A stretch of DNA of 64,000 nucleotides from Sacculina carcini (taxonomy: Eukaryota > Arthropoda > Thecostraca > Sacculinidae): assembly GCA_916048095.2 (NCBI GenBank), contig OU696578.1:3826906-3890905 (forward strand). The letters run 5' to 3'. The notes beneath the pieces are model-generated. The model searched no databases. It worked only from the letters and a program-made list of their open reading frames with translations, and was not told where the DNA came from. Within the stretch, counting starts at the first letter, position 1; every line of letters starts with the position of its first letter. The position numbers and the translations under genes are program-made. Below, piece by piece: positions 1,766 to 63,655 of the stretch.

Positions 1766-2345
1766 AGCGCAAATAGTTGGTCAAGGTTGGTGCGTAACGG
1801 AGTAATTGCACCCACAACAGAAGCGACAGAATGGTGCGCGCAGATCGTCGTGGCGCCAAAAAAGCAGAGTCTGAAGATTCGGCTATGTGTGGATTTATCC
1901 CATCTGAACAAATACGTTGTCCGTGAGCGCTATCAGAGTGAGACACCCGCAGAAGCAGTGGCGTCGATATCACAGGCTGAAGCAGGTTGGTTCACGACAT
2001 TTGACGCTCTCAAGGGGTATCACCAATGCCCTCTTGATGAGCAGAGTCAGCTGCTGACGACATTCTTGACACCGTACGGTAGGTATCGCTTCCTGCCCCT
2101 CTGCCTCCTCTGCCCCGTATGTAATAAATAGTATTTCGGAACACTATAACCGCCGAATGACTGAGTGTTTTTCAGGGCTGGAGAGATTCGCTCGGGTTGT
2201 CGATGACGTCATCGTATATGACCAGTCACTGGAGGAGCATCTCAAGCACGTGGCCGAGTTCTTGCAACGGTGCTCGGACGCCGGCTCAGCCGTGATAAAT
2301 TCCGTGCAGCACAGACAACCGCCCAGTTTGCTGGCTATGAGGTAG
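1766..2345 (+). pseudogene. Reverse transcriptase domain of the gypsy element, frameshifted
   Basis: The frame running to 2131 contains RT finger and palm motifs: NGVIAPTTEATEWCAQIVV, then IRLCVDLSHLN, then FTTFDALKGYHQCPLDE with the first catalytic Asp. It leaves frame after TPYGRYRFL. Homology resumes in another frame at about 2140 with HYNRRMTECFSGLERF and the catalytic pair in RVVDDVIVYD. A second shift near 2270 joins the next frame (LSRDKFRAAQTTAQFAGYEV). The usual YxDD is VVDD here, a variant known in some gypsy lineages. The expected upstream gag-protease part is absent. It is non-functional as it stands. Confidence 0.85.
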
Positions 2346-19596: not shown

Positions 19597-19632
19597 CTTC
19601 CCCGTTGCAGAGAGGAGAGGCGGGAGAGTCGT

Positions 19633-20733: not shown

Positions 20734-20757
20734 CCTACATGACCGCCGCTAAAACAC

Positions 20758-24883: not shown

Positions 24884-26506
24884 ATGACTCTGAAATCTAT
24901 TTCTGGTCACTCTTCTAAGTCATCCTGCTCAATATCTGCCAGTGAAATCGCCTCATTTTTCTCTTGTAAAATTGCATCCTTGCAATCCAAATTACCCACT
25001 AGCACCTTTCCTCTCCAATTTCCTCCTTGCCTTAGCACTGTTTCTTCATTTTTCTTGATTGTTCCGTCTACCACAGCACGTTTTCTTACCAAACTTCAGA
25101 TGTCTAAACGTCCCACTGACCCCATACAATTTTCTGCTCTCTCTGACGCTCTTATACTCCTTACTCCACTTTTCACATATATGGTTAACTCTTGTTTCCT
25201 TCACGGTTTATTCTTAGCTTCCAAACATGCCACTATACTGCCGATTCTCAAAAAAATCCAATCTTGATCCCTCTCTTCCATGCAACTATCGTCCAATTTC
25301 TCTTCTATCTCTGTCCTCCAAGCTTTTCGAATCTGCCATCCTTGTTCAATTACGGTCTATCATCTTGCCTGTTCTCGATCCTTGCCAATCTGGTTTTGTA
25401 TCTCAGCACTCTACCGAAACGCTTCTTCTCTGCCTCGCCAATGATCTATTCTCTAATCTTTCGTTTGGAAATTCCGTGCTTCTGATTTCCTTAGATTTTT
25501 CTGCTGCCTTCGATCTAGTCGACCACGAAATCTTATGTTGTGATCTTGCTCATCTAGGCCTCACATCTACTGCACTTTCTCTCCTTACCTCATATCTAAA
25601 TGATCGGTCCTATGCTGTTCGCAGTAATGCGGCTTTATCGTGCGACTTGCCTCTCACCTCTGGGGTTCCACAAGGCTCATTTATTGATCCTTTACTTTTG
25701 AACTTATACGTATCATCCCTTTGTCCTATTCTCCGCAGCTATCCAGCTTCATTTCACGTATACGCTTCGACATCCAAATTTATTTTCCTCTTTCTCCTCA
25801 TTCTTCAAATTTGGTCTCTTTGCTGCTCACCCAGATTTCTTTTTGAACTGCTTCACGTGAACTTGTTTTCAACCCTGACAAAACAGAATATCTAGTCTTT
25901 CACCCTCCTCGAATTTCTCCTCACTCCATCAACCTTCCGCTAGCCAACCAAATGCGCAATTTGGGTGTCTTGTTCGATCCCAACCTTTCTTTCTCGAAGC
26001 ATTTTTCTCAGCTTACCCGCTCGTGCCGCTTTTTACTCCGACAATTTTACCCTATTCGTTCGTCGAATGATGTCTCATCCGCTATTCTTCTGGTGAACTC
26101 CTATATCTTTTCTAAGATCGACTATTGCAACTCGCTCTTCTTCCATCTTACCTTGAAATCTACCCGCCAGCTCCAAGCAGCGATCAATCTTGCTTGTCGG
26201 TTTGTACTGATGCTTCCTCCGCGAACCCCTACTTCGGTGCATATCCGGCAGCTCGGTTGGTTACCTGCCCTTTCTCGTATCCGCTATAAGGTATGTTGTC
26301 TGGTCTTCAAACTTATCCACTCTCCCTCTTCTCCTTCATATCCCCGTTCCCTATTGACTCTCAATAATCGCACTTCTTATCGCATTCCTGTGCCATTAGT
26401 CTGTCCTCCTGCTCTTAATCAATCATCTTGGTCATCCAAATATTTTTATTTCTCTGCTCCTCGTATCTATAACTCGCTTCTTCTCCTTTTCGGCTCATCT
26501 TCATAA
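24884..26506 (+). pseudogene. LINE reverse transcriptase, frameshifted, catalytic Asp pair lost
   Basis: The three frames used in turn are 24884-25267, 25227-25895 and 25952-26506. Motifs include NYRPISLLSLSSKLFE, ISLDFSAAFDLVDHEIL and TSGVPQGSFIDPLLLNLYV. The fifth RT motif reads FHVYASTSKF at about 25757, where relatives have YADD (the copy at 6786 has YTDD), so both catalytic Asp are gone. The C-terminal frame holds MRNLGVLFDPNLSFSKHFSQ and FSKIDYCNSLFFHL, typical of this family, which is the same as at 6786 and 62557. It ends with the 3' tail near 27036. Confidence 0.9.
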
Positions 26507-45959: not shown

Positions 45960-46845
45960 TGTCAAAATAGGCAGGCACAAAGGCACGATAAAACAGCAAA
46001 TCAAGAGAGCGCTGCTATATCAAGCTTGATAATTTCATGTCCAATGCGGCAGGATATGGATATATTTTAGACAAATATGGTTGTAATTACACACACACAC
46101 ACAAACACACACGTGTGTACACACACACACGCACACAGAATTCGACGCACCTAACAATATAGATACGAGTATATAGCGCCGGTTAAAGCCATACACTGCA
46201 AACTTATAAGGACACTGACACTAAATCATAATTTTTACTAGTAATACATAATGAGTATTTAGAAAAAATACTATTGTTGAGAAGTTCACTACGTCATATT
46301 TTGAATGGTTTATATATATTTTGATAACCCGCATGCAGTCCGTGGGCCTCGCATTTGAGACTCCTGAAGTAAACATATGTCTTTGCACGAGTCTGCGATG
46401 TATTGCTGTATAATATGTGTGTGCGTGTGTGTTATTTCGGTGTGATTCTGTTGTCTGAATCAATTGGTTTTGGAGTCACTAGGTTGTTGTTTACTCGTGA
46501 GCGTCACGTGACAAAATGCAATTGGTTTCTAGCTCTCTGATTGGTTGTACTGGCCATCTCGCCACTGATTGGTCACAACATTTGTTACCGCGGAAAATTA
46601 ACACATGATTGCAGAAAGTATTGTTTATTAATGTTGCAGATGGAATCAACATTTAAACGTCAATACTTTCTAAATACCGTGTTACAATGTGCGAACTTCA
46701 CTCGTTCATTCTCAATAAAGCTGGTTACGAATCACCGTCCGCTGACTCATAGCGAGTGATGTTGAGGATTTCGGTTGTAACACAAGTAGATGGCAGCTAG
46801 TGGTACGTCAGATGTTGCACGTGACTGATGTTGTTCACATGCATG
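45960..46845 (+). repeat. Module B, copy 2
   Basis: It matches 22680-23785 from AAAATAGGCAGGCAC to TTGTTCACATG, including the CA/ACGTGT microsatellite (46090-46135), the four ATTGG boxes and the AGAAAGTATTG...CAATACTTTCT inverted pair. It is shorter than copy 1. The final bases overlap the stop end of the minus-strand ORF at 46835. Confidence 0.85.
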
Positions 46846-49036
46846 TACCAGAACTTGCCAGACGCTGGTCTATGTGGTCCAACTGCTCTTGACTATATCT
46901 CTGTGGCGGTTCATTACTGGTCGCAGACTGCTGATGCATGTTATATTGTACATTGCCTTGTGGCTGTGTACTCTCCACAGGCTGAGCGTAACAGTTGAAC
47001 TGTTGTTGGCTCATTTCATCAGTCGGAGCAAAGCTTCCCTGGGACTGGTCGCAGTGGGAGAATTGCTGCTGGCTGCTTGTTTGTGGCATTTGATAACTGC
47101 TCACATTTTGCTGCAAGCAGTATGACTGTTCCTGATCGTTTGCTTGTGGCGGAACATCAGCCGCCAGTTTATGAACATAATACTCCGTCACAAGCTGATA
47201 ATTTGCCTCTGGCAATACATAACTTACCAGAGGCTGTACGAAATAAATGAGCTCTTGTTGGACATTTGTCTGAGGAGACTGGGGCGTCCCCAGAGGCTGC
47301 TCCAAGTTGTTATAGCACTGATGTTGGTCACTTGTTTGTGTCTCACAAGGACTTTCCGAGGTAATGTTCAACTGCTGTTCATTTATATGAGGCTGGTCAT
47401 AGCTGGACTTATTCTGCCCATAACAGCGGAGTTGTTGATTATCTGACTGTGCTGTTAAATATTCTTCTAGAGAATACACGTAGCAGTTGAACTGCTGCTG
47501 AAGGCTTGCTGGTGGCATCGCATTTCCCGCCAGAAACTGTGAGTTGTCATAGTTGAGTTGCTGTTCACTTGCATATGACACATCGTAGTTCTTCTGGGTA
47601 TGATCGTAATTGGTAAACTGTTGTTGCTCGTTGGCTCGTAGCGGTCCATGTGTAGGAATTGTTTGTTTAATGTAATTGATCTGTTCTGTGTAAGTTGTTG
47701 ATGCTGGCTCAGAGCTTGCTACACTCTGCTCCTGGAAGTTGAGCTGCTGTTTGCTGTTTGTCTGAGACGGATGATAAGTTCCCGGTGGTTGATTAATACT
47801 GTTGAACTCCTGCTGGATGTTGTTTTGAGGCAGTTCATCATCAATCACAGGTTTTGGTACGTAGCCTGTTTGTTCTGTACCATTTGCCTGTGGCGGTACA
47901 TCTCCCGCCAGCTGGTCCACTTGATAGTTGAATTGTTGATGTTGAATCGTCTGTGGTGGAGCGTAATTATCCAGTGGATAGACATAGCAGCAGAACTGCT
48001 GCTCGTAGTTCGCCAGAGGCGGATCACATCCCGCGAGAGGCTGTGAGTTGTGATAGTTGAGACTTGCATGTGACTGATCGTAGCAAGCTTGGAGCTGATC
48101 TAAGCGGTAATACTGCTGGTGGTCGTTGGTCTGTGGGAGTTCATTGCTTGTAATAGGCTGTTGTGCATAGTTGACCTGCTCCGAGTAATTAGTCATTGGA
48201 TTTTCATAGCTCTCTACACGCTGAGTTTGACTGTTGACCTCTTGAGAGAGGCTTGCGTGATATGTTTGATGAGCCCCCAGATACTGCTGCAAGTGTTTGA
48301 ACTGATCATGACATTGATTTGTCTGCACGTGGGAGTATAACTGTTCTTCATTACCATGCTGAAGAACGGAACTTGCCAGTTGATGCTCGTAGGAGGCTTG
48401 TTCTTGATCTTGAACTGTTTCTGCAGTTTCCAAACTGGTCATTGGTTGAACAAAGTTGGATAACTTTAGTTCACTTGGCTGCTGCTGAGCATAGCTCGCT
48501 TGTGGCTGCTCGAAGTGATTGAACTCCTGTTGGATGTTGTTTTGAGGCAGTTCGGTATTAATTACAGGTTGTGGTACGTAGATGGTCTGATCTGTACCAT
48601 TTGCGTGTGGCGGAGTATATCCCGCCTGAGGCTCCACTTGATAGTTTAGTTGTTGATGATCACTGATCTGTGCAGGAGCGTTGACGTCCAGTGGATATAC
48701 GGTGCAGCAGAACTGCGGCACGTAGCAGACCTGTGGCGGAGGCTGCACGTAATAATCTGTCACCATTTGGTAGTTTGCCTCTGGCAATATATAAGTTGCC
48801 AGAGGTTGTACGTAATAGTACAAGGGTGACTGGATGTTTTCCAATGGTAGGTTGTAATTTACCATTGCCGGTATGTAGTTGAGAGGCGCATAGAATAGAA
48901 GGTAGAAGGTCATGGCTATTGTGGCGATGACAGATGGAACAAAATTGTCGTGAAACAACAAAGCTGTCACTTCAGTCAAATCCACAATACGATTAACTGC
49001 ACAGAGTTCGTTGACCTGCCGTTCGATTAAAAACAT
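46835..49036 (-). CDS. 733-aa Gln/Tyr/Pro-rich repetitive protein, single exon
   Basis: An intact minus-strand frame starts at a true ATG (MFLIERQVNELCAVNRI). Residues about 38-60 (VIATIAMTFYLLFYAPL) are hydrophobic and could be a membrane segment or uncleaved signal. The rest is low-complexity repeats with a loose period, reading as Y-x-QP...SY-x-PQ-x-N-x-QQQ-F/L-N. Longer blocks recur: CCTVYPLDVNAP near the start against CCYVYPLDNYAPP later, and LPQNNIQQEFN twice. It is rich in Gln, Asn, Tyr, Pro and Ser with few charged residues, so probably disordered and perhaps prion-like, structural or secreted. No family is recognised. Such a long uninterrupted frame in a repeat-rich area suggests a real gene, although repeats can keep frames open passively. 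Confidence 0.6.
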   Translation of the reverse strand: MFLIERQVNELCAVNRIVDLTEVTALLFHDNFVPSVIATIAMTFYLLFYAPLNYIPAMVNYNLPLENIQSPLYYYVQPLATYILPEANYQMVTDYYVQPPPQVCYVPQFCCTVYPLDVNAPAQISDHQQLNYQVEPQAGYTPPHANGTDQTIYVPQPVINTELPQNNIQQEFNHFEQPQASYAQQQPSELKLSNFVQPMTSLETAETVQDQEQASYEHQLASSVLQHGNEEQLYSHVQTNQCHDQFKHLQQYLGAHQTYHASLSQEVNSQTQRVESYENPMTNYSEQVNYAQQPITSNELPQTNDHQQYYRLDQLQACYDQSHASLNYHNSQPLAGCDPPLANYEQQFCCYVYPLDNYAPPQTIQHQQFNYQVDQLAGDVPPQANGTEQTGYVPKPVIDDELPQNNIQQEFNSINQPPGTYHPSQTNSKQQLNFQEQSVASSEPASTTYTEQINYIKQTIPTHGPLRANEQQQFTNYDHTQKNYDVSYASEQQLNYDNSQFLAGNAMPPASLQQQFNCYVYSLEEYLTAQSDNQQLRCYGQNKSSYDQPHINEQQLNITSESPCETQTSDQHQCYNNLEQPLGTPQSPQTNVQQELIYFVQPLVSYVLPEANYQLVTEYYVHKLAADVPPQANDQEQSYCLQQNVSSYQMPQTSSQQQFSHCDQSQGSFAPTDEMSQQQFNCYAQPVESTQPQGNVQYNMHQQSATSNEPPQRYSQEQLDHIDQRLASSGTCM

Positions 49037-49670
49037 ACAAATATAACGTGATAGCGCCGTTTACGATCGCCTGAACATATTTAGTATTATTTGTTTTTAT
49101 CGTTCGTTCTTTATTGAAGCTAGTATTGAGATATATCTATACCTGTTGTATGAAATAATGACATTCCATTCTATAGCATTATATCATTGAATATGTCTAG
49201 ATAATTTTTATTTAATACTACTGTTTATTCAGTTTATTTTGCGATTCTTCTGCATAACGTGTATTTGCGTTTTTTGTGTATATTTTATACGGTAAAGTTC
49301 CTTGGTTCTGTATGAGTTGGGCATGGGATCACATTAATTAAAGTAATTCAATAACTTTTTTTTAAATTTATATAAATTTAATTTTTAATTAATTTAATTT
49401 TCGGTGTGTGTGTGCACTAGATCAAATTTTGATTCTGTCAAGCAGACTATTATTTATGTTGTTTTTATTATTAAAAATTCATTGACAAGGTGAAATGAGA
49501 AGATCGTCAATGTTATATTTTTTTTGACTGCACTATCCATATACCTTGACCATCAAGCAACAGTGAGATTTGAGCAATAAAATTATCCAAACAACTGTAT
49601 TATCCAATTACATATTTGTATTATCCAATTACATATTTAAATATTCCTTGTAAACCAAACATTTCGATTA
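49037..49670. other. AT-rich noncoding DNA upstream of the Gln-rich ORF
   Basis: This stretch would hold the promoter of the minus-strand ORF, but I see no clear core promoter. No other gene or repeat partner was found. Confidence 0.4.
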
Positions 49671-50045: not shown

Positions 50046-50281
50046 CACCAATGCAATAGACAAAAAACATAATACATATCCCCCTGATTCTAAGAATCAC
50101 TATGCCCGATTAGAATTATACACAACATAATCATTGAACCGCGCCGGACGCTGACTCTGTCGCTGTGGTCGCGCCTGCTGCTGACCGCTACTCGCCGGAT
50201 CAGTCCCGGCAGTCCTCTCAGTAGAAGAGTTCAACACTTTGTTACATTTGTTTACATTATCCCCCTTGCCCCTCCCCCCTC

Positions 50282-50320
50282 TGACGTCACCCCCCTATGA
50301 CGTCACCCCCTCTGACGTCA
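50282..50320. promoter_or_regulatory. Three CRE-type TGACGTCA sites near the left end
   Basis: Perfect TGACGTCA palindromes lie at 50282-50289, 50298-50305 and 50313-50320, separated by C-rich spacers (15-16 bp period). The right end has two, at 59620-59627 and 59636-59643. CREB/ATF sites near DNA-virus termini can act as enhancers; role here is inferred. Confidence 0.6.
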
Positions 50321-50805
50321 CACTTAACCTAACTTTTTTAACCTAACCTAACTTTTTTTCTTTTTTAACCTAACCTAACTTTTTTTCTTTTTTAACCTAA
50401 CCTAACTTTTTTTTTTAGTTTTTTAACCTAACTTTTTTTTTACCTAACCTAACTTATTTTCTTATTCTATACCTAACCCAACCCAACCTAACCCAACCTA
50501 ACCTAACTTTTATTTTTAATATTTATTCTATACCTAACCCAACCTAACCTAACTTTTATTTTTAATATTTATTCTATACCTAACCCAACCTAACCTAACC
50601 TAACCTAACTTATTTTCTTAATTTCTTTATTCTATACCTAACCCAACCCGACCTAACCTAACCTTTATTTTCTTTATTTCTTTATTCTATACCCAACCCA
50701 ACCTAACCTAACTTTTATTTTTAATATTTATTCTATACCTAACCTAACCCAACCTAACCTAACCTAACCTAACCCGACCTAACTTTTATTTTTAATATTT
50801 ATTTT
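50321..50805. repeat. Telomere-like CCTAA pentamer zone, left arm
   Basis: Runs of CCTAA/CCCAA are broken by T-rich and TATTTTTAATATTTATTCTATA spacers. The unit equals the arthropod telomere repeat TTAGG on the other strand. Its twin is in the right arm, so it belongs to the element rather than to a chromosome end. Confidence 0.85.
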
Positions 50806-50962
50806 AAATATGCATACCTGACGGGTTTCGAACCGGGGTCCTCGCAGAGTTCAGTCACAGCGGGAATATGCTGGTGGAGCTAGACATATTTGTTTGCGCC
50901 GCATTTGTTTGCGTCACGATATATCGGGATCGCCAAGTCGATGTTTGGCAGAGGCGTGAGTA

Positions 50963-51169
50963 GTGTATTATAGCCGAAATGGGTTTATACAAAATGGTTT
51001 GACTAAATCGGTAATTAAAACGCTATTCGACTGTGTCGGAATTGACACAAAAATGACTTGCAACGAAATGATCTTTGTGTATTTTCACTTGATACACAAC
51101 TATGGCAAATATACAAGCGGAAATCATGTAGAATCATATTGGCCATACGATTCAGCGAACACATCGTGA
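50963..51169 (+). CDS. Small hypothetical ORF, left arm (68 aa)
   Basis: The frame ends FVYFHLIHNYGKYTSGNHVES...SANTS and is identical in the other arm (58956-59162) except for one Gly/Arg change. It opens on GTG. The first ATG inside (MTCNEMIFVYF) would leave about 38 residues, so the start is doubtful. No family is recognised. Conservation between arms only reflects recent duplication. Confidence 0.3.
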   Translation: MYYSRNGFIQNGLTKSVIKTLFDCVGIDTKMTCNEMIFVYFHLIHNYGKYTSGNHVESYWPYDSANTS

Positions 51170-51451
51170 ACACAAATGTTTGTTGATTTTTCGATCAATT
51201 TTGATGATGTAAATCATATCGTGTGTCTCATACACAATTTCCAGTTCAGCCGACCATGTATCAGGAACAGAAACACCTTCTTGTAGAGCTTCCGAAAGAC
51301 ACACGTCAAACGATGTGTACTCTTTGTACGATTCGCTGATGATGTGTTTGCTATCTGACGAGCTACCACCAACATAGCGATAGTTATAATTAGGCACCAG
51401 TGTAGCAGGAGAAACACAGCTCATGGTGTTTATACAAAGAAAGATAAACAT
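51152..51451 (-). CDS. Hypothetical virion-element protein, left arm (99 aa)
   Basis: An ATG-started frame, MFIFLCINTMSCVSPATL; a second possible start is Met10. It contains VPNYNYRYVGGSSSDSKHI and a C-terminal IKIDRKINKHLCSRCVR with CxxC. Its twin at 58674-58973 differs by Arg/Gln. It overlaps head-to-tail with the small ORF at 50963-51169. Unknown function; soluble, no membrane segment apart from the short hydrophobic N-terminus. Confidence 0.5.
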   Translation of the reverse strand: MFIFLCINTMSCVSPATLVPNYNYRYVGGSSSDSKHIISESYKEYTSFDVCLSEALQEGVSVPDTWSAELEIVYETHDMIYIIKIDRKINKHLCSRCVR

Positions 51452-51608
51452 TGACTGTAAGAGCGAAATTATCAGACACGGAGTGATGTTGGCGATAATT
51501 ATGACGCATGCTCCGATAAGTAGTGCAATTAGTCTCAGCCGTGATACGCAGTTGAGCTCGAGACGCTTGCGGGTGAGGTTGTGTAGCTTTTATCGGGGAA
51601 TTGTCAAC

Positions 51609-52202
51609 ATGAGTCAGGTGAATACAAACGTTGATACGACCAAGCGGATCCTGCCACTGGAACATCATGCGGTCAAGTTTGTTGCCGATACACCGTTCAT
51701 CTGTGGACACCCACTGGAGCAGAGGATTTGGATTATTTTCGGACGACTGGAAAAACATAGTCAGACGGATTTCGAACACTTACAAAAACAGCTTACTAAT
51801 ATTATGCAGCTGGAGCGATATTTTGACCCCTTTTGGAAAATTCATCGCGGCGCGGTGAGAATGTTCACCAACGAGGAGCGTGCACTACAGATTGTGATCG
51901 ATACAGTTATGAGTCGACCGATGAGAGATGCTGTTCTTGGAGCCGTTGCAGCCGCTGTATCATTTAAAGTGTTGTCGGTGGCGTTGGTGCGAAGTGACGA
52001 GACTCAGATTTACCGGCCGCCCGATGCGACCTGCAACACTATGGAGTGGATGAAGACCATTGTTATGAGCTACTATGAGTCGCGAAAACAGTACTTGACC
52101 GAAACCAAGATTTATCGTGAATTTAAAGCCGACAAAATGAAGATGGTTGTGCACAAAGAGGTTCAAGGTGAACCACAAAGTAAACGGAACAAAATTTGTT
52201 GA
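51609..52202 (+). CDS. Hypothetical protein of the element, left arm, intact (197 aa)
   Basis: The first plausible start is the ATG at 51609 (MSQVNTNVDTTKRILPLEHH); an in-frame extension to 51423 overlaps the opposite-strand ORF and is less likely. A hydrophobic, Ala-rich segment (MRDAVLGAVAAAVSFKVLSV) lies about two thirds along. The C-terminus is basic (VQGEPQSKRNKIC). It is convergent with the 174-aa ORF. No family is recognised. Its right-arm twin is frameshifted, so this is the only intact copy. Confidence 0.6.
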   Translation: MSQVNTNVDTTKRILPLEHHAVKFVADTPFICGHPLEQRIWIIFGRLEKHSQTDFEHLQKQLTNIMQLERYFDPFWKIHRGAVRMFTNEERALQIVIDTVMSRPMRDAVLGAVAAAVSFKVLSVALVRSDETQIYRPPDATCNTMEWMKTIVMSYYESRKQYLTETKIYREFKADKMKMVVHKEVQGEPQSKRNKIC

Positions 52203-52302
52203 ATTATTCTATATGTACGGTTTACCAATACATTTCGTGATGTGTTACAAGAGTTTGATTATTGCGCGCGAACAAAAACACACTTTGTTATCGTTCAATT
52301 TA

Positions 52303-52827
52303 TTAAAATGGTAGCATGCGCGGTGTACACAGATTCATTGCATACAGCAATTTAGCGAAATGTTGACAACGTAAAATACAACAGTTTGTAGGAATGACAT
52401 GAGTATATGGACACGGTGTGATGTTGGGTAGTACATGTATGTCGCGTGCGTTCATTGATAAATAGTCGGGTAGGATGTCTTCGATATTTTCAATATTTAG
52501 TTCAAGTAGGTGGGAAAGTCGACGAGCCTTGTCGATAACTTTGGCGTAGATGTGGTCGGGTTCCAGACTTTGAATGAGGTAACTTGCGTCGCGCAGCTTT
52601 TGTTCATACTTGTGCGTGTTGTAAGGATTGTAATTATATTCCAAGCCGTGTAGGGTCGCCGTCAAAAATAGAAAATGCTTGCGTCGCTCAGCGTTGAGTT
52701 TCAATTGTGGTGGCGGTAGGATGGTGTGCCACAAGTATCCCGAGCACAGGTCATGCACAACCAATTCCTTGACAACAAAAGGCGAATCCTTGTGCTGGAA
52801 ACCGTCACAGTCTACAAGTATGACCAT
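52303..52827 (-). CDS. Hypothetical protein of the element, left arm, intact (174 aa)
   Basis: The start ATG at 52827 overlaps the end of the protease gene by 16 bases. The N-terminus MVILVDCDGFQHKDSPFVVKE has a beta-strand, DxD, then Gly-Phe, loosely like the first motif of DEDD-type exonucleases or an RNase H fold, but I cannot identify the remaining acidic residues with certainty. The middle contains ERRKHFLFLTATLHGLEYN. The end holds cysteines (NITPCPYTHVIPTNCCILRC). The right-arm copy has a stop at codon 33. Nuclease identity is a weak inference. Confidence 0.6.
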   Translation of the reverse strand: MVILVDCDGFQHKDSPFVVKELVVHDLCSGYLWHTILPPPQLKLNAERRKHFLFLTATLHGLEYNYNPYNTHKYEQKLRDASYLIQSLEPDHIYAKVIDKARRLSHLLELNIENIEDILPDYLSMNARDIHVLPNITPCPYTHVIPTNCCILRCQHFAKLLYAMNLCTPRMLPF

Positions 52828-53258
52828 ACCAGCGCTAAAAGCTGATTGTTGATAGCAGGGTCGGTGGATAGGCACGAAACGAAATCTTGCAGATCCCAGC
52901 CGGTGTCAAACAATGCAACAAATAGGGCACAGTACTGTCCACACACGTCCGAGTCCGGCGCCTGAATGACGCGCGTGTTCAGCACACACTGATTATAGTT
53001 TACATGTTTGTTTATAAAATTCACAAACGAGGGATGCCAGACGGGTGAGTTGCCAGACGAGTCGAAATATTGGAGATTTTCACCGTCCCAGGCAAACACG
53101 ACCCAATGCAGACCCGATTGCCAGCGCGGTTGTATATTCACAATAATTGATGTGCGCACACCGCGAGCAAATGTGAAATGTTTTAGCCGGTCGCACGCCC
53201 AAACCCCCCGAAATGTGGCGACTGTGTCGAGCAACCGTTCCAATTCAAGCGCGTTCAT
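52812..53258 (-). CDS. Adenain-type cysteine protease, left-arm copy (148 aa)
   Basis: Same length as the right-arm copy (56866-57312), with one visible Val/Leu change near residue 34. Catalytic set as in adenovirus-type C5 proteases and Polinton proteases: His51 (GLHWVVFAWD), Asp66 (QYFDSSGN), Gln99 (RVIQAPDSD) and Cys106 (DVCGQYCALF). It would mature virion proteins in the assembling capsid. It starts at ATG 53258, overlapping the stop of the truncated capsid-like gene, and reads outward in the arm. Intact. Confidence 0.9.
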   Translation of the reverse strand: MNALELERLLDTVATFRGVWACDRLKHFTFARGVRTSIIVNIQPRWQSGLHWVVFAWDGENLQYFDSSGNSPVWHPSFVNFINKHVNYNQCVLNTRVIQAPDSDVCGQYCALFVALFDTGWDLQDFVSCLSTDPAINNQLLALVWSYL

Positions 53259-53709
53259 AGTTGAAAATCTGTGCTGACACGTCCCGCACTGTCAATTGTG
53301 ATTTCGTTTTCAAACGTGGCGTAGATTAGAACGTTAATTGTCTCGGGTAGAGCGTAAGTGAATGCCAGCTCACACCTCACATTACCTTGTTCACGCGGAT
53401 GCAAATGATCACCACCACACTGATCCGGAGTCAGATCTACAATAAACAAAGTATAACCAGCCTCATAATCATCATGTGTGATATCCAGGCCCTGGTTTTC
53501 CGTATCGAGACCGGTACCGTCAAACAGTGACAGTTACGATCTCATGTATAGACCTTTTGTGAAATCGGGGCGATAGGGGTGCGTGGGGTACGGCTCGCCA
53601 TTTATATAGAACTGAAGACTGTTTAGATGGTAGTGGTGAAAATTACATGGGTTTTTCTGTAGCGATCCGTGGTACGCTTCAGTGCTTACGAGTCCCAGCA
53701 GAATTTGTC
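53255..53709 (-). pseudogene. C-terminal fragment of the capsid-like gene, left arm, with a stop
   Basis: Only the part of the gene inside the inverted arm is present, about the last 150 codons, so it has no 5' end. A TAA at 53534-53536 (minus strand) replaces a Tyr codon of the right copy. The remaining frame from 53449 ends exactly at the start of the left protease gene. Confidence 0.9.
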
Positions 53710-53734
53710 AAATATACTTAGTGTACTGGTCGAT

Positions 53735-55222
53735 ATGAACGAGTTTTATGTAACGCTGCCGAGCGTCGCCAGTAGTCAGACATTCACACGTAACACCACT
53801 GCCAAATTCTCGGTGAATCTCGCTCAGCGTTTATGTCTAGATACACAACAATGGCAAGTGGCCTTACACTCTGTTCTTCTGCCCACCAACTGGCTGACCC
53901 TCAACAAAGATATAATATTTTCAGAGTACAGTCCGAATGCGGGCGATCTCAATAAATCCTCAACAGTGTATGCTGGCAAGTATACTACCGATACGTTCAT
54001 TTCGGCGCTACAAACGCATGTGAATAGCGATCATGTGAAAGTAAAAGTATCACGAGACAATCATTTATGGCTGGAGGCTACAAACATTGTGTTGCACATA
54101 AGCGAACAATTTTCCCGACTATTGCATGTCAACGGATCGATAGCACACTCGTTACGACGATATCGCTATGCACATTATGGTGTGTTTGACGCCAGCGATA
54201 TCACTATGATCATGTCCACACCGTTTCCGTTGGACCCAGCCTCGACGCAATTGTTGACTATCGAAACAGATCTTGTAGCTGCACAAATAGTCAACCGCTC
54301 ACTGCAACCACAACTCCGTCAAATACATGTGTGTGACACCTCTCCGATTCAAGAATTGGTATTTAATCAAATGTATTATAAACCTTTGTCACTTTCCAAT
54401 ATATCTACTGTTCAGGTGAGAATCCTTGTCGAATCCCGTAAAAAATTCCCTTTCACTACCGGCCCGGGTCTAATTTTGACGCTACATTTTCGAAAAATGT
54501 CCAGCCAATGCTTCTATGTGTCGTTGGACAGTTCGAGCTGTCTACACCTTTATCCTGGAAACACTGCATCTCAATTTCGTGTTCAGCTACCGGCACCACT
54601 GAATCTAGATCGTTCGTGGACTGTTAGACTGGTCGAAATCACATTTTCCGCTCGCTGGCTGAATGTAGAAAATCGTATGAATGAATTCGAGATTGATGGT
54701 GAGACATTCCAACTCATCACAGGGCACTACATGTCCAATCAGGCGCTGCTGGAAAATTTCCACTATGTTTGCGGTAGACAAGTGCTCACTCTGGATACTG
54801 GTGGACATGTATGGTGTGGGGACACTGACGTATCAGTAAGCACCAAAATAGCTAGGGCTCTTGGGTTCACCAGCCACGTAGTGTCAGATAGTCGCGTTGT
54901 TATTGAAAAACATACACGCTCGTCGAATGTGATGGATGTAAGTCGACTCAACCCAACATTTTTGTATATCTACATGGACAAGCTACAGGCGCAGATGGTT
55001 GGTGATACTATGGCTCCGGTAATACGTGTTGTCAGTCCGTACACGAACGATATAAAATCACCTCAAATTCATCGAACATTCAATCAAATTCAGTATGTAC
55101 CGCTGGAAGATGAGTTCATCACCGATCTGGGAGTGCATATAAGACAGAGCAATGGGCAATTGGTTCCATTTCACCACGGCCGTTCGTACCTGACACTACA
55201 TTTTATGCAAAAACAACAATGA
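53735..55222 (+). CDS. Virion-type protein with two homologous halves (495 aa)
   Basis: The first ATG after the arm junction (53735) opens 495 residues. The halves are tandem paralogues. Residues 2-60 (NEFYVTLPSVASSQTF...NTTAKFSVNL) match residues about 256-315 (SQCFYVSLDSSSCLHLYPGN...FRVQL), and the ends match too (GLILTLHF at about 250, SYLTLHF at about 489). A Met at 255 sits exactly at the boundary. Proteins starting with this FYVxL-type pattern accompany capsid genes in invertebrate Mavericks, so a minor capsid, penton or fibre role is plausible, but not shown. Its stop overlaps the next gene as ATGA. Confidence 0.75.
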   Translation: MNEFYVTLPSVASSQTFTRNTTAKFSVNLAQRLCLDTQQWQVALHSVLLPTNWLTLNKDIIFSEYSPNAGDLNKSSTVYAGKYTTDTFISALQTHVNSDHVKVKVSRDNHLWLEATNIVLHISEQFSRLLHVNGSIAHSLRRYRYAHYGVFDASDITMIMSTPFPLDPASTQLLTIETDLVAAQIVNRSLQPQLRQIHVCDTSPIQELVFNQMYYKPLSLSNISTVQVRILVESRKKFPFTTGPGLILTLHFRKMSSQCFYVSLDSSSCLHLYPGNTASQFRVQLPAPLNLDRSWTVRLVEITFSARWLNVENRMNEFEIDGETFQLITGHYMSNQALLENFHYVCGRQVLTLDTGGHVWCGDTDVSVSTKIARALGFTSHVVSDSRVVIEKHTRSSNVMDVSRLNPTFLYIYMDKLQAQMVGDTMAPVIRVVSPYTNDIKSPQIHRTFNQIQYVPLEDEFITDLGVHIRQSNGQLVPFHHGRSYLTLHFMQKQQ

Positions 55223-55608
55223 CAAATTCTCAGTTGATATTTCGAGGTCCAATGATACAGCGTGGCAGCGGACTTGGGAGTATTTTCAGAGGCTTAATGA
55301 GAGTGGTGATACCCGCCGTCAAAACTGTCGCCAAACAACCTCTGACAAAACATCTGGCTAAATCCGCCTTGAAGACGGGCGTACGCACACTGCAAGACGT
55401 TCTCGACGGAGAAAATGCAAGTCAAGCCGTCCGCAATCGCTCTCGACACGAAGCTAAACGTCTTCTTCGAACCAGTATAAATAGTTTAAATCGTACGACG
55501 AGTCAATCAGTCTCTCGACGACCGACAAAACGAAAAGGTGTTGGTCAACGACGTCAACAGGAACGCGACATCTTTGACAATGCAAAACGTAGACGAATGC
55601 GCTTGTGA
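55219..55608 (+). CDS. Small basic virion-core-like protein (129 aa)
   Basis: ATG 55219 overlaps the previous stop (ATGA). The N-terminus has a Gly-rich start and an amphipathic helix (GSGLGSIFRGLMRVVIPAV), then Lys/Ala-rich helix text. The C-terminus is strongly basic (RRPTKRKGVGQRRQQ, AKRRRMRL), like a nuclear-targeting or DNA-binding tail. The layout recalls adenovirus-type core or membrane-active minor proteins, and similar small proteins occur next to Maverick capsid genes. Function is inferred from composition and place. It overlaps the start of the next gene by 29 bases. Confidence 0.7.
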   Translation: MTNSQLIFRGPMIQRGSGLGSIFRGLMRVVIPAVKTVAKQPLTKHLAKSALKTGVRTLQDVLDGENASQAVRNRSRHEAKRLLRTSINSLNRTTSQSVSRRPTKRKGVGQRRQQERDIFDNAKRRRMRL

Positions 55609-56869
55609 AATAACCGAGGTATTCTCTCGACCAGTGCTTGAAACCAGTGTGAAATCGTCCAAAACACATGTATATTACCCGGTGAGTCGACTAAGCAGCG
55701 AAGGTCCGCTTGAATTTCACTTACCTGCGCTCGGTAAATCGTCTACGCGTCCATCAAAAACCAAGCTCTATGGCAAAGCAGGTGTTGTCAATCGTGACGG
55801 TAGCGAACTCGTCGACGACGCCAACGTGAGCGTTGTCACCCTGCTACCACATGCTCTCTTCAAACAGATTGACTACCAGATTGGTGATACTATTGTATCG
55901 GATTCCAGCGCACTCTATGGCTATCGTGCCTATCTTGAGACGTTGTTGTCGTATAACCAGAACGCTAAAAACGGTCATTTACGGTCGGGTTTTTGGCGTA
56001 AGGATACTGCTGGGCACTTGCATGATGTTAAACTTTTGAACATTGGTTTTAACGAACGCAAACAATGGGTGGCTGGAAGCAAAGTTTTTGATTTTTGTAT
56101 ACCGCTACAGCTGGATACCAACCATCAATGTCGTATATTGCCCGGTACAGTTTCGGAGAAACTCAAACTGATTCGAAACTCTGATCAGTTTGCTCTACTC
56201 GGTGCCGAGGGAGAATACAAGATTGAAATTGTCTACCTGTGTGTGCATGTCGAGAAAATAACGCTTTCCGACTCGATGTGGGTGAATTTTCACAAACAGT
56301 TGGCGAAAACACCAGCCCGATATCCTATTCCACGAGTTCTACTGAAAACATATACTCTCCCCAAAGGAAACATGAGTGGAACTTTGAATAATATTTTCAC
56401 CTCACAAGTGCCGCGACAAATTCTGCTGGGACTCGTAAGCACTGAATCGTACCACGGATCGCTACAGAAAAACCCATGGAATTTTCACCACTACCATCTA
56501 AACAGTCTTCAGTTCTATATAAATGGCGAGCCGTACCCCACGCACCCCTATCGCCCCGATTTCACAAAAGGTCTATACATGAGATCGTATCTGTCACTGT
56601 TTGACGGTACCGGTCTCGATACGGAAAACCAGGGCCTGGATATCACACATGATGATTATGAGGCTGGTTATACTTTGTTTATTGTAGATCTGACTCCGGA
56701 TCAGTGTGGTGGTGATCATTTGCATCCGCGTGAACAAGGTAATGTGAGGTGTGAGCTGGCATTCACTTACGCTCTACCCGAGACAATTAACGTTCTAATC
56801 TACGCCACGTTTGAAAACGAAATCACAATTGACAGTGCGGGACGTGTCAGCACAGATTTTCAACTATGA
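55580..56869 (+). CDS. F54H12.2-type Maverick major-capsid-like protein (429 aa)
   Basis: Start chosen at ATG 55580 (MQNVDECACEITEVFSRP); the longer frame opens on GTG. Text such as NRDGSELVDDANVSVV, ALFKQIDYQIGDTIVSD, YGYRAYLETLLSYNQNAK and YTLFIVDLTPDQCGG matches the protein widely annotated as F54H12.2-like in invertebrates, which is the Maverick/Polinton capsid component with a double jelly-roll fold by comparative work. The gene is intact here. Its last ~150 codons lie in the right arm. Its stop overlaps the protease start (ATGA at 56866-56869), a virus-like packing. Confidence 0.85.
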   Translation: MQNVDECACEITEVFSRPVLETSVKSSKTHVYYPVSRLSSEGPLEFHLPALGKSSTRPSKTKLYGKAGVVNRDGSELVDDANVSVVTLLPHALFKQIDYQIGDTIVSDSSALYGYRAYLETLLSYNQNAKNGHLRSGFWRKDTAGHLHDVKLLNIGFNERKQWVAGSKVFDFCIPLQLDTNHQCRILPGTVSEKLKLIRNSDQFALLGAEGEYKIEIVYLCVHVEKITLSDSMWVNFHKQLAKTPARYPIPRVLLKTYTLPKGNMSGTLNNIFTSQVPRQILLGLVSTESYHGSLQKNPWNFHHYHLNSLQFYINGEPYPTHPYRPDFTKGLYMRSYLSLFDGTGLDTENQGLDITHDDYEAGYTLFIVDLTPDQCGGDHLHPREQGNVRCELAFTYALPETINVLIYATFENEITIDSAGRVSTDFQL

Positions 56870-57312
56870 ACGCGCTTGAATTGGAACGGTTGCTCGACAC
56901 AGTCGCCACATTTCGGGGGGTTTGGGCGTGCGACCGGCTAAAACATTTCACATTTGCTCGCGGTTTGCGCACATCAATTATTGTGAATATACAACCGCGC
57001 TGGCAATCGGGTCTGCATTGGGTCGTGTTTGCCTGGGACGGTGAAAATCTCCAATATTTCGACTCGTCTGGCAACTCACCCGTCTGGCATCCCTCGTTTG
57101 TGAATTTTATAAACAAACATGTAAACTATAATCAGTGTGTGCTGAACACGCGCGTCATTCAGGCGCCGGACTCGGACGTGTGTGGACAGTACTGTGCCCT
57201 ATTTGTTGCATTGTTTGACACCGGCTGGGATCTGCAAGATTTCGTTTCGTGCCTATCGACCGACCCTGCTATCAACAATCAGCTTTTAGCGCTGGTATGG
57301 TCATACTTGTAG
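56866..57312 (+). CDS. Adenain-type cysteine protease, right-arm copy (148 aa)
   Basis: Twin of 52812-53258 with the full catalytic set (His51, Asp66, Gln99, Cys106). Directly follows the capsid-like gene with an ATGA overlap, the expected order for a late gene block. Length is below adenoviral proteases (about 200 aa) and normal for Polintons. Intact. Confidence 0.9.
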   Translation: MNALELERLLDTVATFRGVWACDRLKHFTFARGLRTSIIVNIQPRWQSGLHWVVFAWDGENLQYFDSSGNSPVWHPSFVNFINKHVNYNQCVLNTRVIQAPDSDVCGQYCALFVALFDTGWDLQDFVSCLSTDPAINNQLLALVWSYL

Positions 57313-57821
57313 ACTGTGACGGTTTCCAGCACAAGGATTCGCCTTTTGTTGTCAAGGAATTGGTTGTGCATGACCTGTGCTCGGGATACTTGTGACACAC
57401 CATCCTACCGCCACCACAATTGAAACTCAACGCTGAGCGACGCAAGCATTTTCTATTTTTGACGGCGACCCTACACGGCTTGGAATATAATTACAATCCT
57501 TACAACACGCACAAGTATGAACAAAAGCTGCGCGACGCAAGTTACCTCATTCAAAGTCTGGAACCCGACCACATCTACGCCAAAGGTATCGACAAGGCTC
57601 GTCGACTTTCCCACCTACTTGAACTAAATATTGAAAATCTCGAAGACTTCCTACCCGACTATTTATCAATGAACGCACGCAACATACATGTACTACCCAA
57701 CATCACACCGTGTCCATATACTCATGTCATTCCTACAAACTGTTGTATTTTACGTTGTCAACATTTCGCTGAATTGCTGTATGCAATGAATCTGTGTACA
57801 CCGCGCATGCTACCATTTTAA
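57297..57821 (+). pseudogene. 174-aa ORF, right-arm copy, stop at codon 33
   Basis: Twin of 52303-52827. A TGG Trp codon is TGA at 57393-57395, shortly after LVVHDLCSGYL. The remainder stays open to 57821, with a few replacements (NIENLEDFL for NIENIEDIL). Confidence 0.9.
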
Positions 57822-57921
57822 TAAATTGAACGATAACAAAGTGTGTTTTTGTTCGCGCGCAATAATCAAACTCTTGTAACACATCACGAAATGTATTGGT
57901 AAACCGTACATATAGAATAAT

Positions 57922-58516
57922 TCAACAAATTTTGTTCCGTTTACTTTGTGGTTCACCTTGAACCTCTTTGTGCACAACCATCTTCATTTTGTCGGCTTTA
58001 AATTCACGATAAATCTTGGTTTCGGTCAAGTACTGTTTTCGCGACTCATAGTAGCTCATAACAATGGTCTTCATCCACTCCATAGTGTTGCAGGTCGCAT
58101 CGGGCGGCCGGTAAATCTGAGTCTCGTCACTTCGCACCAACGCCACCGACAACACTTTAAATGATACAGCGGCTGCAACGGCTCCAAGAACAGCATCTCT
58201 CATCGGTCGACTCATAACTGTATCGATCACAATCTGTAGTGCACGCTCCTCGTTGGTGAACATTCTCACCGCGCCGCGATGAATTTTACCAAAAGGGGTC
58301 AAAATATCGCTCCAGTTGCATAATATTAGTAAGCTGTTTTTGTAAGTGTTCGAAATCCGTCTGACTATGTTTTTCCAGTCGTCCGAAAATAATCCAAATC
58401 CTCTGCTCCAGTGGGTGTCCACAGATGAACGGTGTATCGGCAACAAACTTGACCGCATGATGTTCCAGTGGCAGGATCCGCTTGGTCGTATCAACGTTTG
58501 TATTCACCTGACTCAT
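57922..58516 (-). pseudogene. 197-aa ORF, right-arm copy, one-base insertion
   Basis: Twin of 51609-52202, one base longer. The extra T lies in the run at about 58284-58290, just after ERYFDPFW, and brings a stop at once. The downstream part stays open in the shifted frame. The start equivalent is the ATG at 58516. Confidence 0.9.
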
Positions 58517-58673
58517 GTTGAAAATTCCCCGATAAAAGCTACACAACCTCACCCGCAAGCGTCTCGAGCTCAACTGCGTATCACGGCTGAGACTAATTGC
58601 ACTACTTATCGGAGCATGCGTCATAATTATCGCCAACATCACTCCGTGTCTGATAATTTCGCTCTTACAGTCA

Positions 58674-58973
58674 ATGTTTATCTTTCTTTGTATAAACACC
58701 ATGAGCTGTGTTTCTCCTGCTACACTGGTGCCTAATTATAACTATCGCTATGTTGGTGGTAGTTCGTCAGATAGCAAACACATCATCAGCGAATCGTACA
58801 AAGAGTACACATCGTTTGACGTGTGTCTTTCGGAAGCTCTACAAGAAGGTGTTTCTGTTCCTGATACATGGTCGGCTGAACTGGAAATTGTGTATGAGAC
58901 ACACGATATGATTTACATCATCAAAATTGATCAAAAAATCAACAAACATTTGTGTTCACGATGTGTTCGCTGA
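58674..58973 (+). CDS. Hypothetical virion-element protein, right arm (99 aa)
   Basis: Twin of 51152-51451 with one visible replacement (Gln for Arg in IKIDQKINK). Same two possible ATG starts (58674 or 58701). Confidence 0.5.
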   Translation: MFIFLCINTMSCVSPATLVPNYNYRYVGGSSSDSKHIISESYKEYTSFDVCLSEALQEGVSVPDTWSAELEIVYETHDMIYIIKIDQKINKHLCSRCVR

Positions 58974-59162
58974 ATCGTATGGCCAATATGATTCTACATG
59001 ATTTCCGCTTGTATATTTGCCATAGTTGTGTATCAAGTGAAAATACACAAAGATCATTTCGTTGCAAGTCATTTTTGTGTCAATTCTGACACAGTCGAAT
59101 AGCGTTTTAATTACCGATTTAGTCAAACCATTTTGTATAAACCCATTTCGGCTATAATACAC
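58956..59162 (-). CDS. Small hypothetical ORF, right arm (68 aa)
   Basis: Twin of 50963-51169, opening on GTG; Arg replaces Gly in FDCVRIDTK. Low confidence as a gene. Confidence 0.3.
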   Translation of the reverse strand: MYYSRNGFIQNGLTKSVIKTLFDCVRIDTKMTCNEMIFVYFHLIHNYGKYTSGNHVESYWPYDSANTS

Positions 59163-59309
59163 TACTCACGCCTCTGCCAAACATCGACTTGGCGATCCCG
59201 ATATATCGTGACGCAAACAAATGCGGCGCAAACAAATATGTCTAGTTCCACCAGCATATTCCCGCTGTGACTGAACTCTGCGAGGACCCCGGTTCGAAAC
59301 CCGTCAGGT

Positions 59310-59615
59310 ATGCATATTTAAAATAAATAGAATAAATAAAAGTTAGGTTGGGTTGGGTTAGGTTAGGTTGGGTTGAGTTAGGTATATAATAAATATTAAA
59401 AATAAAAGTTAGGTCGGGTTAGGTTAGGTTAGGTATAGAATAAATATTAAAAATAAAAGTTAGGTCGGGTTGGGTTAGGTTGGGTTAGGTCGGGTTGGGT
59501 TAGGTATACACAAACAAGTTAGGTTAGGTTAAAAAACTAAAAAAAGTTGAGTTAGGTTAAAAAAAAGAAAAAAAAAGTTGAGTTAGGTTAAAAAAAACTA
59601 AAAAAAGTTAGGTTA
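59310..59615. repeat. Telomere-like TTAGG pentamer zone, right arm
   Basis: This is the inverted twin of 50321-50805, about 180 bp shorter, with TTAGG/TTGGG units and A-rich spacers. Length differs between arms although the coding parts are nearly identical, so this zone changes fast. Confidence 0.85.
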
Positions 59616-59619
59616 AGTG

Positions 59620-59643
59620 TGACGTCAGAGGGGGGTGACGTCA
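59620..59643. promoter_or_regulatory. Two CRE-type TGACGTCA sites near the right end
   Basis: Palindromes at 59620-59627 and 59636-59643 with a G-rich spacer; counterpart of the three sites near the left end. Confidence 0.6.
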
Positions 59644-59786
59644 GAGGGGGGAGGGGCAAGGGGGATAATGTACACAAATGTGACAAAGTGTAGTACTCTA
59701 CTACTCTCTCACCGTACACCATGACGGCAGGCTCGCCGTCGTCCTCAACGTCACCGCTCGCCTCGTCCAATGAGATTGAAAGCTCT

Positions 59787-60845: not shown

Positions 60846-62388
60846 GATACACATTCACGCTGTTGCTGGCGACAATTTGTTCAAACAAAACGTTGCGGAA
60901 TTGCTGCTCAGATATCGTCCATTTCGGTGTACTGTTTAAGATATGCGTTGGCGGTGTTGTACGTAGTGCGGTGTTTGTTTGTGCTGCATTGAATTGGATA
61001 TCGCTATCGAAATCAGCTTCTGCATCTTTATATGTGTGTGGGAATTTACATCAAAAGTATCATTTCAACTCATTTCAAATTTAATTTCCTTTCATCACTT
61101 TCAGATATAATTTCCATTCAACTCCTATGTATTGAACTTAATGACGTCACTGAATATCCGAGTGGATGGCGATATACAATGTATGGCGCATGAAAGGGAA
61201 GTGTGGTTGGTGATCTTGAGTGTCAAAGCCCGTCAAACTTCATTTGTCATTTTTCATTGTCAACTCAGTCAATTTTCAACTAATCTATTGACAACAAATT
61301 TCAACTTGATTGCTTGATCTAGATCGCTCGTGGTACCTTATTGTCAACTTGTTCGATATTTTCAACATTGGTACGTTACTCCACTTCTGTCTACCACATC
61401 AAGGGTACGGGCGGCAGTGACGACTTCGCCGGTGACCGTCCCGTGAGAGGACGATTTTCACAAACCACCTTTGTTCATTTTTTCAATTATAAGCGCCTCA
61501 TCTCTATGTAAGTTGATATAATTTGTATTGCGAGAGGACGTGTGGAAGTTTATATTGTGAGAGTGTGCAGATTGTATTGCGAGAGTGCGCGTGGAAGTTT
61601 ATATTGTGAGAGTGTGCAGATTGTATTGCGAGAGTGCGTGTGGAAGTTTATACCGTGCGAGTGTGTTGTAATCAGGAGTTAAAATTGAATCTGGAGTACG
61701 TTCAATAAAGTTGTTTCCGTTCATCTGTCATATTCCTTCATGCAATTCTAACATGTGACGGAATCCTACAATTTATTCATTTGAGCTGAGTCAATTAACA
61801 CGCATTTGTGCTGTAATGGATTCATATATATCAACTACACGTGGGTTGCGATTTGTTATTGCTTGCGTACGAGCGGCTTTTGGCCAGTATATTGATCTGT
61901 TGAATTAGTTGGTCCACCAGGGCTGTACCAGTAGTACCGGTCGAATATGATACGATCTTGTCAAGTAGCACCCCTACAGTGGTATGTTTACCTCGTCGAT
62001 TGCGTGGTCGCAAGTAATAATGCAATGTTCTCTTAGGGCAGCGCTTACATACGATGCCCTTTTCATTTCATCATTACAGTTCACTTGCGTACCATCTCAC
62101 ATTGAAGTCTCCAATTACGGTTTTTGGTGTAATTAAGCAGGCGGTATTTGAAGTCTAATTAATTAAACTGGATGCAAATTCTTAGAATTGTTTTCCCTCT
62201 CATCCCTCCTCTAATCTAGCAAAACAGATTAGTTTTTTGAAATTTTATTGTAATGACGAGTTAGGCACTCTCATATAAAGCTGTAACATGAAAACTTAGA
62301 CACATTGTAAAGTACATCAGTACATATCATGTAATTATTATCTCAATTCATTTTGAAGCGTAGGTACAATCTCATATATCTACCAGGC
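60846..62388. other. Noncoding DNA with a short tandem repeat
   Basis: No gene is recognised; the frames at 60863-61084 and 61132-61317 have no domain. About two and a half copies of a 49-50-bp unit (GTGGAAGTTTATATTGTGAG ... GCGAGAGTGCG) lie at about 61548-61655. An AATAAAG signal at 61707 and ACATGTGACGGAATCC near 61752 could be the end of an unrecognised LTR, but no partner is present. Confidence 0.5.
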
Positions 62389-62556: not shown

Positions 62557-63655
62557 TTGATAATGGTGTCCATATTGATAGATATTACCCATTCAGGTGT
62601 CATTCAGGATGAGTTCATTCTTATTCTTCCTCCTCGCTCACCTCTTATCCTATCATCCACAGTTCGCAGGCTCGGACTTATTTTTGACTCATCTCTCTCT
62701 TCCTCCGACAACATCCTCTCTGTCGCCCGCACTTGTCGTCTTATCTTGAGATCCCTCTATCCTATACGCTCATATCTCGACAGACCTTCCGCAATCAAAC
62801 TTATTCACTCTCATGTATTCTCTAGACTTGACTATTGTAATTCTTTGTACATCCATGCTCCTCGTCGTTCTCTTAAAACCCTACAACGCGTTATTAATCA
62901 ATCTTGTCGTTTTGTCCTTCATCCTGTTCCTTGTCGTCACACTTATCCATTTCTTTTTCAATTTCGCTGGCTCCCTATTATTCCACGTATACACTTTCGC
63001 CTGTGCTGTCTGATATATAAGCTTCTCCACGATCCTCATCAGCCATCTTATCTCCGCTTTCTCCTCACTCCTTCCCGAATTCCTCTTCCCCTTGTATGCC
63101 CTCGTGCTGTAAATCTCGTGCTCGTGCTGAATCTCCTTGGTCCTCAAAATCATTCATTTTTTCCGCCCCTCGCCTTTACAATTTCATCCCAGTTCACATT
63201 ACTTCTTATCTTTCCTACAATTCTTTCCGCTCTAAGCTCTCCAAACACTTTTTTGACCTCTCTTTTGACCCAGTCTCCCACACTCTCACACCTTTTGCAT
63301 CACTATAACATGTTACTTTAGCCTGTTCATAATCGTATTCCTTCTCTCATTTGCATGCTCACTATATCTACGCTATGACTATATTCTCCCGAGCTGTGTT
63401 TGCTGTGTTGTGTTGTCATTATGTTTCAGTCGTGTTGTCTTGTCCGTCCTGTCCGTCTGCTTTGTATGTTTTGCCCATATTTTGTCTCTATATTTATTGT
63501 CATTTATTGCATATTTGTAGTTTACTTCTTTTGCATCTGTCCTGTTATTTGTATTCCGTGTTCCCAACTGTTATAATCGTGTCGCGCCCGAGCCCTTCGG
63601 TGCGCTATAACAAATACATGTTGTTGTTGTTGTTATTGTTGTTGAGTAAGTGAAA
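62557..63655 (+). pseudogene. LINE 3' end (RT C-terminal part) with TTG tail
   Basis: The frame to 63321 contains STVRRLGLIFDSSLSSSDN, ARTCRLILRSLYPIRSYLD, VFSRLDYCNSLYIHAPRRSL and HIHFRLCCLIYKLLHD-like text, the same C-terminal domain as 25952-26506. Catalytic RT motifs are absent because the copy is 5'-truncated. The 3' UTR ends GTGCGCTATAACAAATACATG and a TTG tail at about 63619-63650, the hallmark of this family. Confidence 0.9.

Follow-up and report, generated by a model that had tools for sequence, protein, structure and literature searches.

The window analysed here, a 64-kb stretch of the Sacculina carcini assembly (C10:3826906-3890905), carries at 50220-59705 the capsid/protease end of a Polinton (Maverick) element, duplicated in inverted orientation over 9,486 bp. 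Both termini are copies of a single Polinton end, inverted around a unique centre, which is the arrangement of a snap-back genome. Very probably, the element is the integrated snap-back (fold-back) genome of a Polinton. Eleven sister copies elsewhere in the assembly appear to share the mirror-image layout, and the fold-back by-product seems to be common in this genome. Searches cover the 264-Mb assembly with its 43 contigs (C numbers), and palindromes are named by their contig.

Layout and genes of the window element

The sequence-only reading had described arms of 3.49 and 3.29 kb around a 2.7-kb unique centre, and inverted-repeat alignment gives 3,490, 3,291 and 2,705 bp (Table 1). The repeat is made up of two block pairs that abut each other, 50742-51840 with 58285-59383 and 51827-53709 with 56415-58297, both of which are 99% complementary. 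Aligned in one piece with gaps, the arms are 98.3% identical over 3,080 bp. The same reading had called the element a near-perfect palindrome. This holds for the inner ~3 kb but not for the ends, where the outer 0.3-0.5 kb of the arms consist of AACCT/TTAGG-rich arrays of unequal length and the terminal 87-bp blocks (50220-50306 and 59619-59705) are 93% alike, with about six differences. Both element tips start with AGTAG. The host flanks differ, and CTCTC lies directly outside each tip as a perfect 5-bp target-site duplication (TSD); the element shows the terminal inverted repeats (TIRs) and the TSD of 5-6 bp that characterize a Polinton. The left arm repeats the protease gene and the sequence beyond it, and of the capsid gene only about the last 151 codons, 92 of which are open.

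The window protease matches PF00770 (E 8.2e-8), as is expected for a Polinton, and its frame is open in both arms. Three PDB sequences match it with E values of 6e-5 to 1.4e-4, one of them named adenoviral proteinase (1avp). For the capsid-like protein, 194 homologues are found, and 3 of the 120 listed are named F54H12.2-like. One of four homologues scanned (P0035) exceeds the Pfam double-jelly-roll cut-off; no Pfam family matches the protein of the window element. A PHROGs scan of three proteins gave no match, and a tRNA search found none.

A full-length relative of ~16.1 kb lies between TIRs at C4:5121131-5137237 (L037) and was read only in part. It carries rve integrase (PF00665), A32-type ATPase (PF04665) and PolB (PF03175, E 1.2e-47) in this order on one strand, followed by capsid and protease on the other. 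Its right end is 97.7% identical to the window element over 5.5 kb and 93.2% identical to the left arm over 3.4 kb. It is a full-length relative of the sort that the sequence-only reading had proposed to search for, with a single end that corresponds to one arm. The left half of the relative, where PolB, integrase and ATPase lie, is similar to the window element in the terminal repeats and nowhere else. PolB is absent from the window element by comparison with the PolB stretch of the relative, and rve integrase and an A32/FtsK-type ATPase are absent by family scan and by comparison with the relative. The gene content of the relative and the pattern of matches bear out the assignment to the Polinton type, with the genes of one end kept twice and polymerase, integrase and ATPase lost. 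As integrase, ATPase and PolB are missing, the window element is a defective derivative of a Polinton/Maverick member.

The Polinton family is large. At least 150 protease matches are present across the assembly (150 of 275 candidates were scored and 150 of 150 match), together with at least 150 matches to a piece of PolB. Since many of the protease and PolB frames are open, the family may have been active recently. A second family with ~65-77% protein identity is also present in the assembly.

The AACCT/TTAGG-rich terminal repeats sit ~0.1 kb inside the tips, and the same region is alike in the relatives L037 and L038. AACCT/TTAGG is the insect telomere motif. Tandem TGACGTCA sites of the CRE/ATF type adjoin both tips. 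Adenovirus end promoters carry sites similar to this type.

Table 1. Features of the window element, in window coordinates.
Feature	Position	Strand	Basis or remark
Left TSD copy CTCTC	50215..50219	.	tip/flank comparison
Left arm, inverted protease end, tip begins AGTAGAAGAG...	50220..53709	-	inverted-repeat alignment
Tandem 15/16-bp units with TGACGTCA, left end	50275..50321	.	
AACCT-rich subterminal repeats, left end	50333..50806	.	
270-codon open frame pointing to the centre, left arm	51390..52202	+	
Right-arm counterpart of the 270-codon frame	57922-58735		split into two frames
Open frame after the protease, left arm	52303..52905	-	
Right-arm counterpart of the frame after the protease	57396-57821		shorter
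Adenovirus-type C5 cysteine protease, left-arm copy, open	52812..53258	-	family from right-arm copy
3' part (~151 codons) of major-capsid-like gene, left arm	53255..53709	-	last 92 codons open (53255-53533)
Fold-back junction (predicted)	53709..53710	.	
Unique 2,705-bp centre, putative loop of snap-back	53710..56414	.	
495-codon open frame before the capsid gene	53735..55222	+	no Pfam/PHROG match
Basic-protein open frame (stop to stop)	55114..55608	+	no Pfam match above cut-off
Major-capsid-like protein, F54H12.2-like family, open	55520..56869	+	
Right arm, terminates in element tip	56415..59705	+	
Adenovirus-type C5 cysteine protease, right-arm copy, open	56866..57312	+	
TTAGG-rich subterminal repeats, right end	59342..59606	.	
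Tandem 16-bp units with TGACGTCA, right end	59619..59651	.	
Right TSD copy CTCTC	59706..59710	.	

Sister palindromes, their insertion and their turning points

A 30-base tip motif occurs 198 times in the assembly with at most one mismatch, and its reversed control 0 times. Plus and minus tips less than 31 kb apart, taken from 174 listed places, form 69 tip pairs. Sequences of the protease, the capsid, PolB, the ends or the centre served as markers; 46 pairs contain one or more of them and 23 contain none. The marker-bearing pairs divide into 13 with markers in both orientations, 21 canonical ones, 10 with the right side only and 2 with PolB only. Where the marker-to-tip distances of the two sides agree within 200 bp, a pair was counted as a palindrome; this is the case for 10 of the 13 pairs with both orientations, that is for 10 of the 46 tip-complete, marker-bearing insertions. 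Eight of these are palindromes of the protease end (the window element, C2, C11, C24, C26, two on C35, and C37) and two of the PolB end (C9 and C4:8196071). In addition, C20 (protease end) and C16 (PolB end) were read as palindromes in the sequence, with tips outside the listed places. Both ends of the Polinton are affected, and the total of 12 comprises nine palindromes of the protease end and three of the PolB end, six established at sequence level and six by markers. These counts are probably lower bounds, given that 174 of 198 tip places were used and the sequence was read in part. The arms are 99.8% identical in C26, 99.5% in C20, 99.85% in C24, 99.4% in C16 and 99.8% in C9.

The window junction is spanned at 1 of 40 scored places (240 candidates), and the other 39 cover a single side. 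The centre of C26 finds a full match at its own locus only (40 of 97 candidates scored). Because each is unique among the scored places, the two palindromes point to two single events and not to copies of one spreading palindrome.

Some inverted arrangements were not counted. The 22-kb pair C4:11574512-11596735 has symmetric marker distances and a 5-bp TSD, and its 2-kb centre is mostly unlike the element. C2:6077257-6107689 (30 kb) is asymmetric, C1:11232836-11238776 (5.9 kb) is complex, and inverted marker pairs on C23 and C18 are without listed tips. At C4:11574512-11607726, the 22-kb tip pair with inverted copies is succeeded by another copy at an offset of exactly 10,991 bp, which suggests a larger composite or a tandem duplication.

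In all 22 tip pairs tested, both exact tips are flanked by the same 5 bp, and the sixth base does not agree. When tips were paired wrongly as a control, 5-bp agreement was seen in 2 of 462 pairings. The 22 pairs consist of 11 palindromic insertions (including the unclear C4:11574512), 7 full-length, 2 unclassified and 2 short ones. With 5-bp TSDs at exact tips in 22 of 22 pairs, the tested palindromes were inserted as complete linear molecules, through a reaction of the type that also inserts intact elements. Such a pattern of exact tips and TSD would arise neither from a chimeric read nor from a chromosomal break or a nested insertion. A 2025 paper (PMC12220804) gives a TSD of 6 bp as typical of the rve integrase and of 5-6 bp for Polinton-like viruses. 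In contrast to this rve norm, every one of the 22 pairs tested here has a TSD of exactly 5 bp and not of 6.

Turning points vary among the palindromes read. For C16, an unrearranged relative contains TGGCTTT, 17 nt and AAAGCCA, which can form a 7-bp stem, and the palindrome departs exactly past AAAGCCA. C9 also turns exactly, at TAATT, 12 nt and AATTA (5-bp stem), and C24 shows a 4-bp stem with a 722-nt loop and a single mismatch just beyond; the unrearranged reference for these two is part of another palindrome, ~93% identical. Random fold-back points in the same sequences reach at least 7 bp in ~0.03-0.12%, at least 5 bp in 0.5% and at least 4 bp in 1.5-1.8% of trials. Fold-back primers are present at two or three loci, and these short inverted repeats at the turns are the trace left when a 3' end turns back onto its own strand and primes synthesis there. 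The loop of C20 measures 30 nt, without an unrearranged reference to compare.

To compare the arms with each other, the protease region was aligned in a panel of 34 sequences, including six palindromes, and 190 pairs of 20 non-palindromic copies served as controls. The arms of the window element differ at 13 of 2,318 sites (0.56%). Each of these differences is private to a single arm, 8 to the right and 5 to the left one, and none has both alleles elsewhere in the panel. Three variants are common to the two arms and found in no other panel sequence. Control pairs show a median of 17 differences and of 9.5 sites with both alleles elsewhere in the panel. Zero such sites are found in 9 of the 190 pairs, 6 of these with at least 5 differences, and a single control pair shares at least three private variants. 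The 13 private differences together with the three arm-only shared variants show that the inner, protease-region arms of the window element derive from one molecule. The other palindromes agree with this, as the remaining five of the panel also have no both-allele sites. Their arm differences number 0 for C35:3460930 and C26 (of 2,319 each), 0 for C20 (978 bp only), 1 for C2 and 3 for C24 (1,668 bp), and their shared private variants 1, 1, 36, 0 and 6 in the same order.

Origin of the palindromes

A snap-back origin would proceed as follows. Replication would be protein-primed and strand-displacing and would take place outside the chromosome. A strand begun at the right tip would halt inside the element near 53710, and its 3' end would fold back onto its own strand at 56415 and copy to the 5' end. 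The resulting hairpin would be opened by a second priming at the duplex tip, and the product would be a linear double-stranded palindrome that bears a right tip at both ends. Because the window element has no integrase, the enzyme would be supplied in trans by a complete copy and would insert the palindrome like a normal genome. After insertion, the element would decay by point mutation, and its outermost ends would have been exchanged or have diverged. The folding strand could be the nascent or the displaced one, and the sequence fits either. It seems likely that in this genome Polinton replication regularly yields fold-back genomes, made from either end and inserted as readily as complete ones, and that a datable record of free linear strand-displacement intermediates is thus preserved in its chromosomes.

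Several observations weigh against the snap-back scenario. The junction of the window element itself is blunt, with 0 bp of microhomology. Its tips are of different subtypes, whereas the other 10 palindromic insertions tested agree in their 15 terminal bases. As the window tips (~6 differences in 87 bp) diverge far above the 0.56% of the protease region, either at least one end was swapped or the simple scheme does not suffice. The former may have been a tip exchange with another copy, for example through the terminal repeats; the latter would imply a more complicated history of this palindrome. Apart from the blunt junction and the differing tips, the snap-back fossil suggested by the sequence-only reading passes most tests run. 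In C26, which has an 8-nt loop, 18 nt at the inner arm ends match no other fetched sequence. The single-molecule test says little for C2, which is without any variant shared only by its arms, and equally little for three of the six panel palindromes, since these have no arm differences. C11 and C37 are recognized by one 81-bp marker in two orientations, the tips and the duplication. Finally, the extrachromosomal DNA, the terminal protein and the protein priming are elements of the scheme that we infer.

Among other explanations, the one that survives best is the head-to-head end-joining of two broken linear genomes outside the chromosome, followed by insertion of the joint molecule. We consider it improbable. 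It keeps some weight because the window junction is blunt and because the window tips are of different subtypes, as two parents would leave them. It is opposed by the six panel palindromes without both-allele differences, three of them free of any difference, compared to 9 of 190 controls, and by the three variants common to the arms of the window element alone. Moreover, loops of 8, 12, 17 and 30 nt would demand that two independent breaks nearly coincide, and C16 and C9 turn exactly at inverted repeats that are already present in relatives.

The chance is slighter still that the palindromes arose by rearrangement after insertion, be it through nested or neighbouring insertions or through repair of a chromosomal break by fold-back. 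Neighbouring and tandem copies do exist, the 10,991-bp repeat on C4 being an example, but such events would not leave an exact tip at each end together with a matching TSD of 5 bp. Furthermore, inverted neighbour markers less than 13 kb apart are mostly outward, with 25 minus/plus against 2 plus/minus pairs and 8 in the same orientation, where several pairs describe the same element and some are not palindromes.

Least credible of all is an assembly or amplification artefact, a fold-back chimera or an arm duplicated by the assembler: the whole analysis rests on assembled sequence, the arms of C26 and C35:3460930 are identical in the protease region (0 of 2,319), and amplification chimeras also exploit short inverted repeats, but a chimera would invert the host flank too and the flanks differ here, a 5-bp TSD is found at the exact tips in 11 of 11 palindromic insertions tested, and an assembly duplicate is unlikely because the window arms are set apart by 13 private substitutions in 2,318 bp, because the two flanks show no relation to each other and because there is a TSD.

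The remainder of the window contains retroelement-like open frames (reverse transcriptase, integrase) at 2222-4453, 17971-20748, 25218-26506 and 62557-63321, which were named by eye. A 741-codon minus-strand frame at 46835-49060 is Gln-rich with internal repeats and has no Pfam match. At 61523-61669, a 49-bp unit is present in three tandem copies.

Relation to known systems

The full-length relative shares with Polintons/Mavericks the rve integrase, the A32-like ATPase, PolB, the C5 protease, the capsid, the TIRs and the TSD. In contrast, the window copy mirrors a single end and carries neither PolB nor integrase nor ATPase. Adintovirus-type elements are relatives of Polintons/Mavericks. The mode by which Polintons are copied has so far been deduced mainly from gene content. 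Palindromes that run from tip to tip, arms derived from a single molecule and fold-back primers would be the physical imprint left by the copying of free linear strands, and the 5-bp TSDs show that the fold-back products were inserted as units. Defective viral genomes compete with intact ones. If snap-back genomes account for a fifth of the complete insertions, intact copies may face competition from them for integrase and other factors.

A survey of endogenous Polinton-like viruses retained elements whose inverted repeats measured 100 bp to 8 kb (2025, PMC12220804), and the main text of this paper contains 'palindrom' 0 times. Some long-repeat elements of that survey could be palindromes of the same kind. 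More generally, elements annotated with very long terminal repeats may deserve re-examination. Among the titles and abstract openings listed from the open-licence literature, no account of palindromic or snap-back Polintons was found. Polintons and snap-back genomes are both already known; integrated snap-back Polintons in numbers seem to be new.

A close parallel is found in adenoviruses, whose defective snap-back genomes are linear, carry one end twice, in inverted orientation on either side of a centre, and lack the other end. The palindromes described here have the same layout. Different from the adenovirus genomes, they occur as chromosomal insertions with TSDs.

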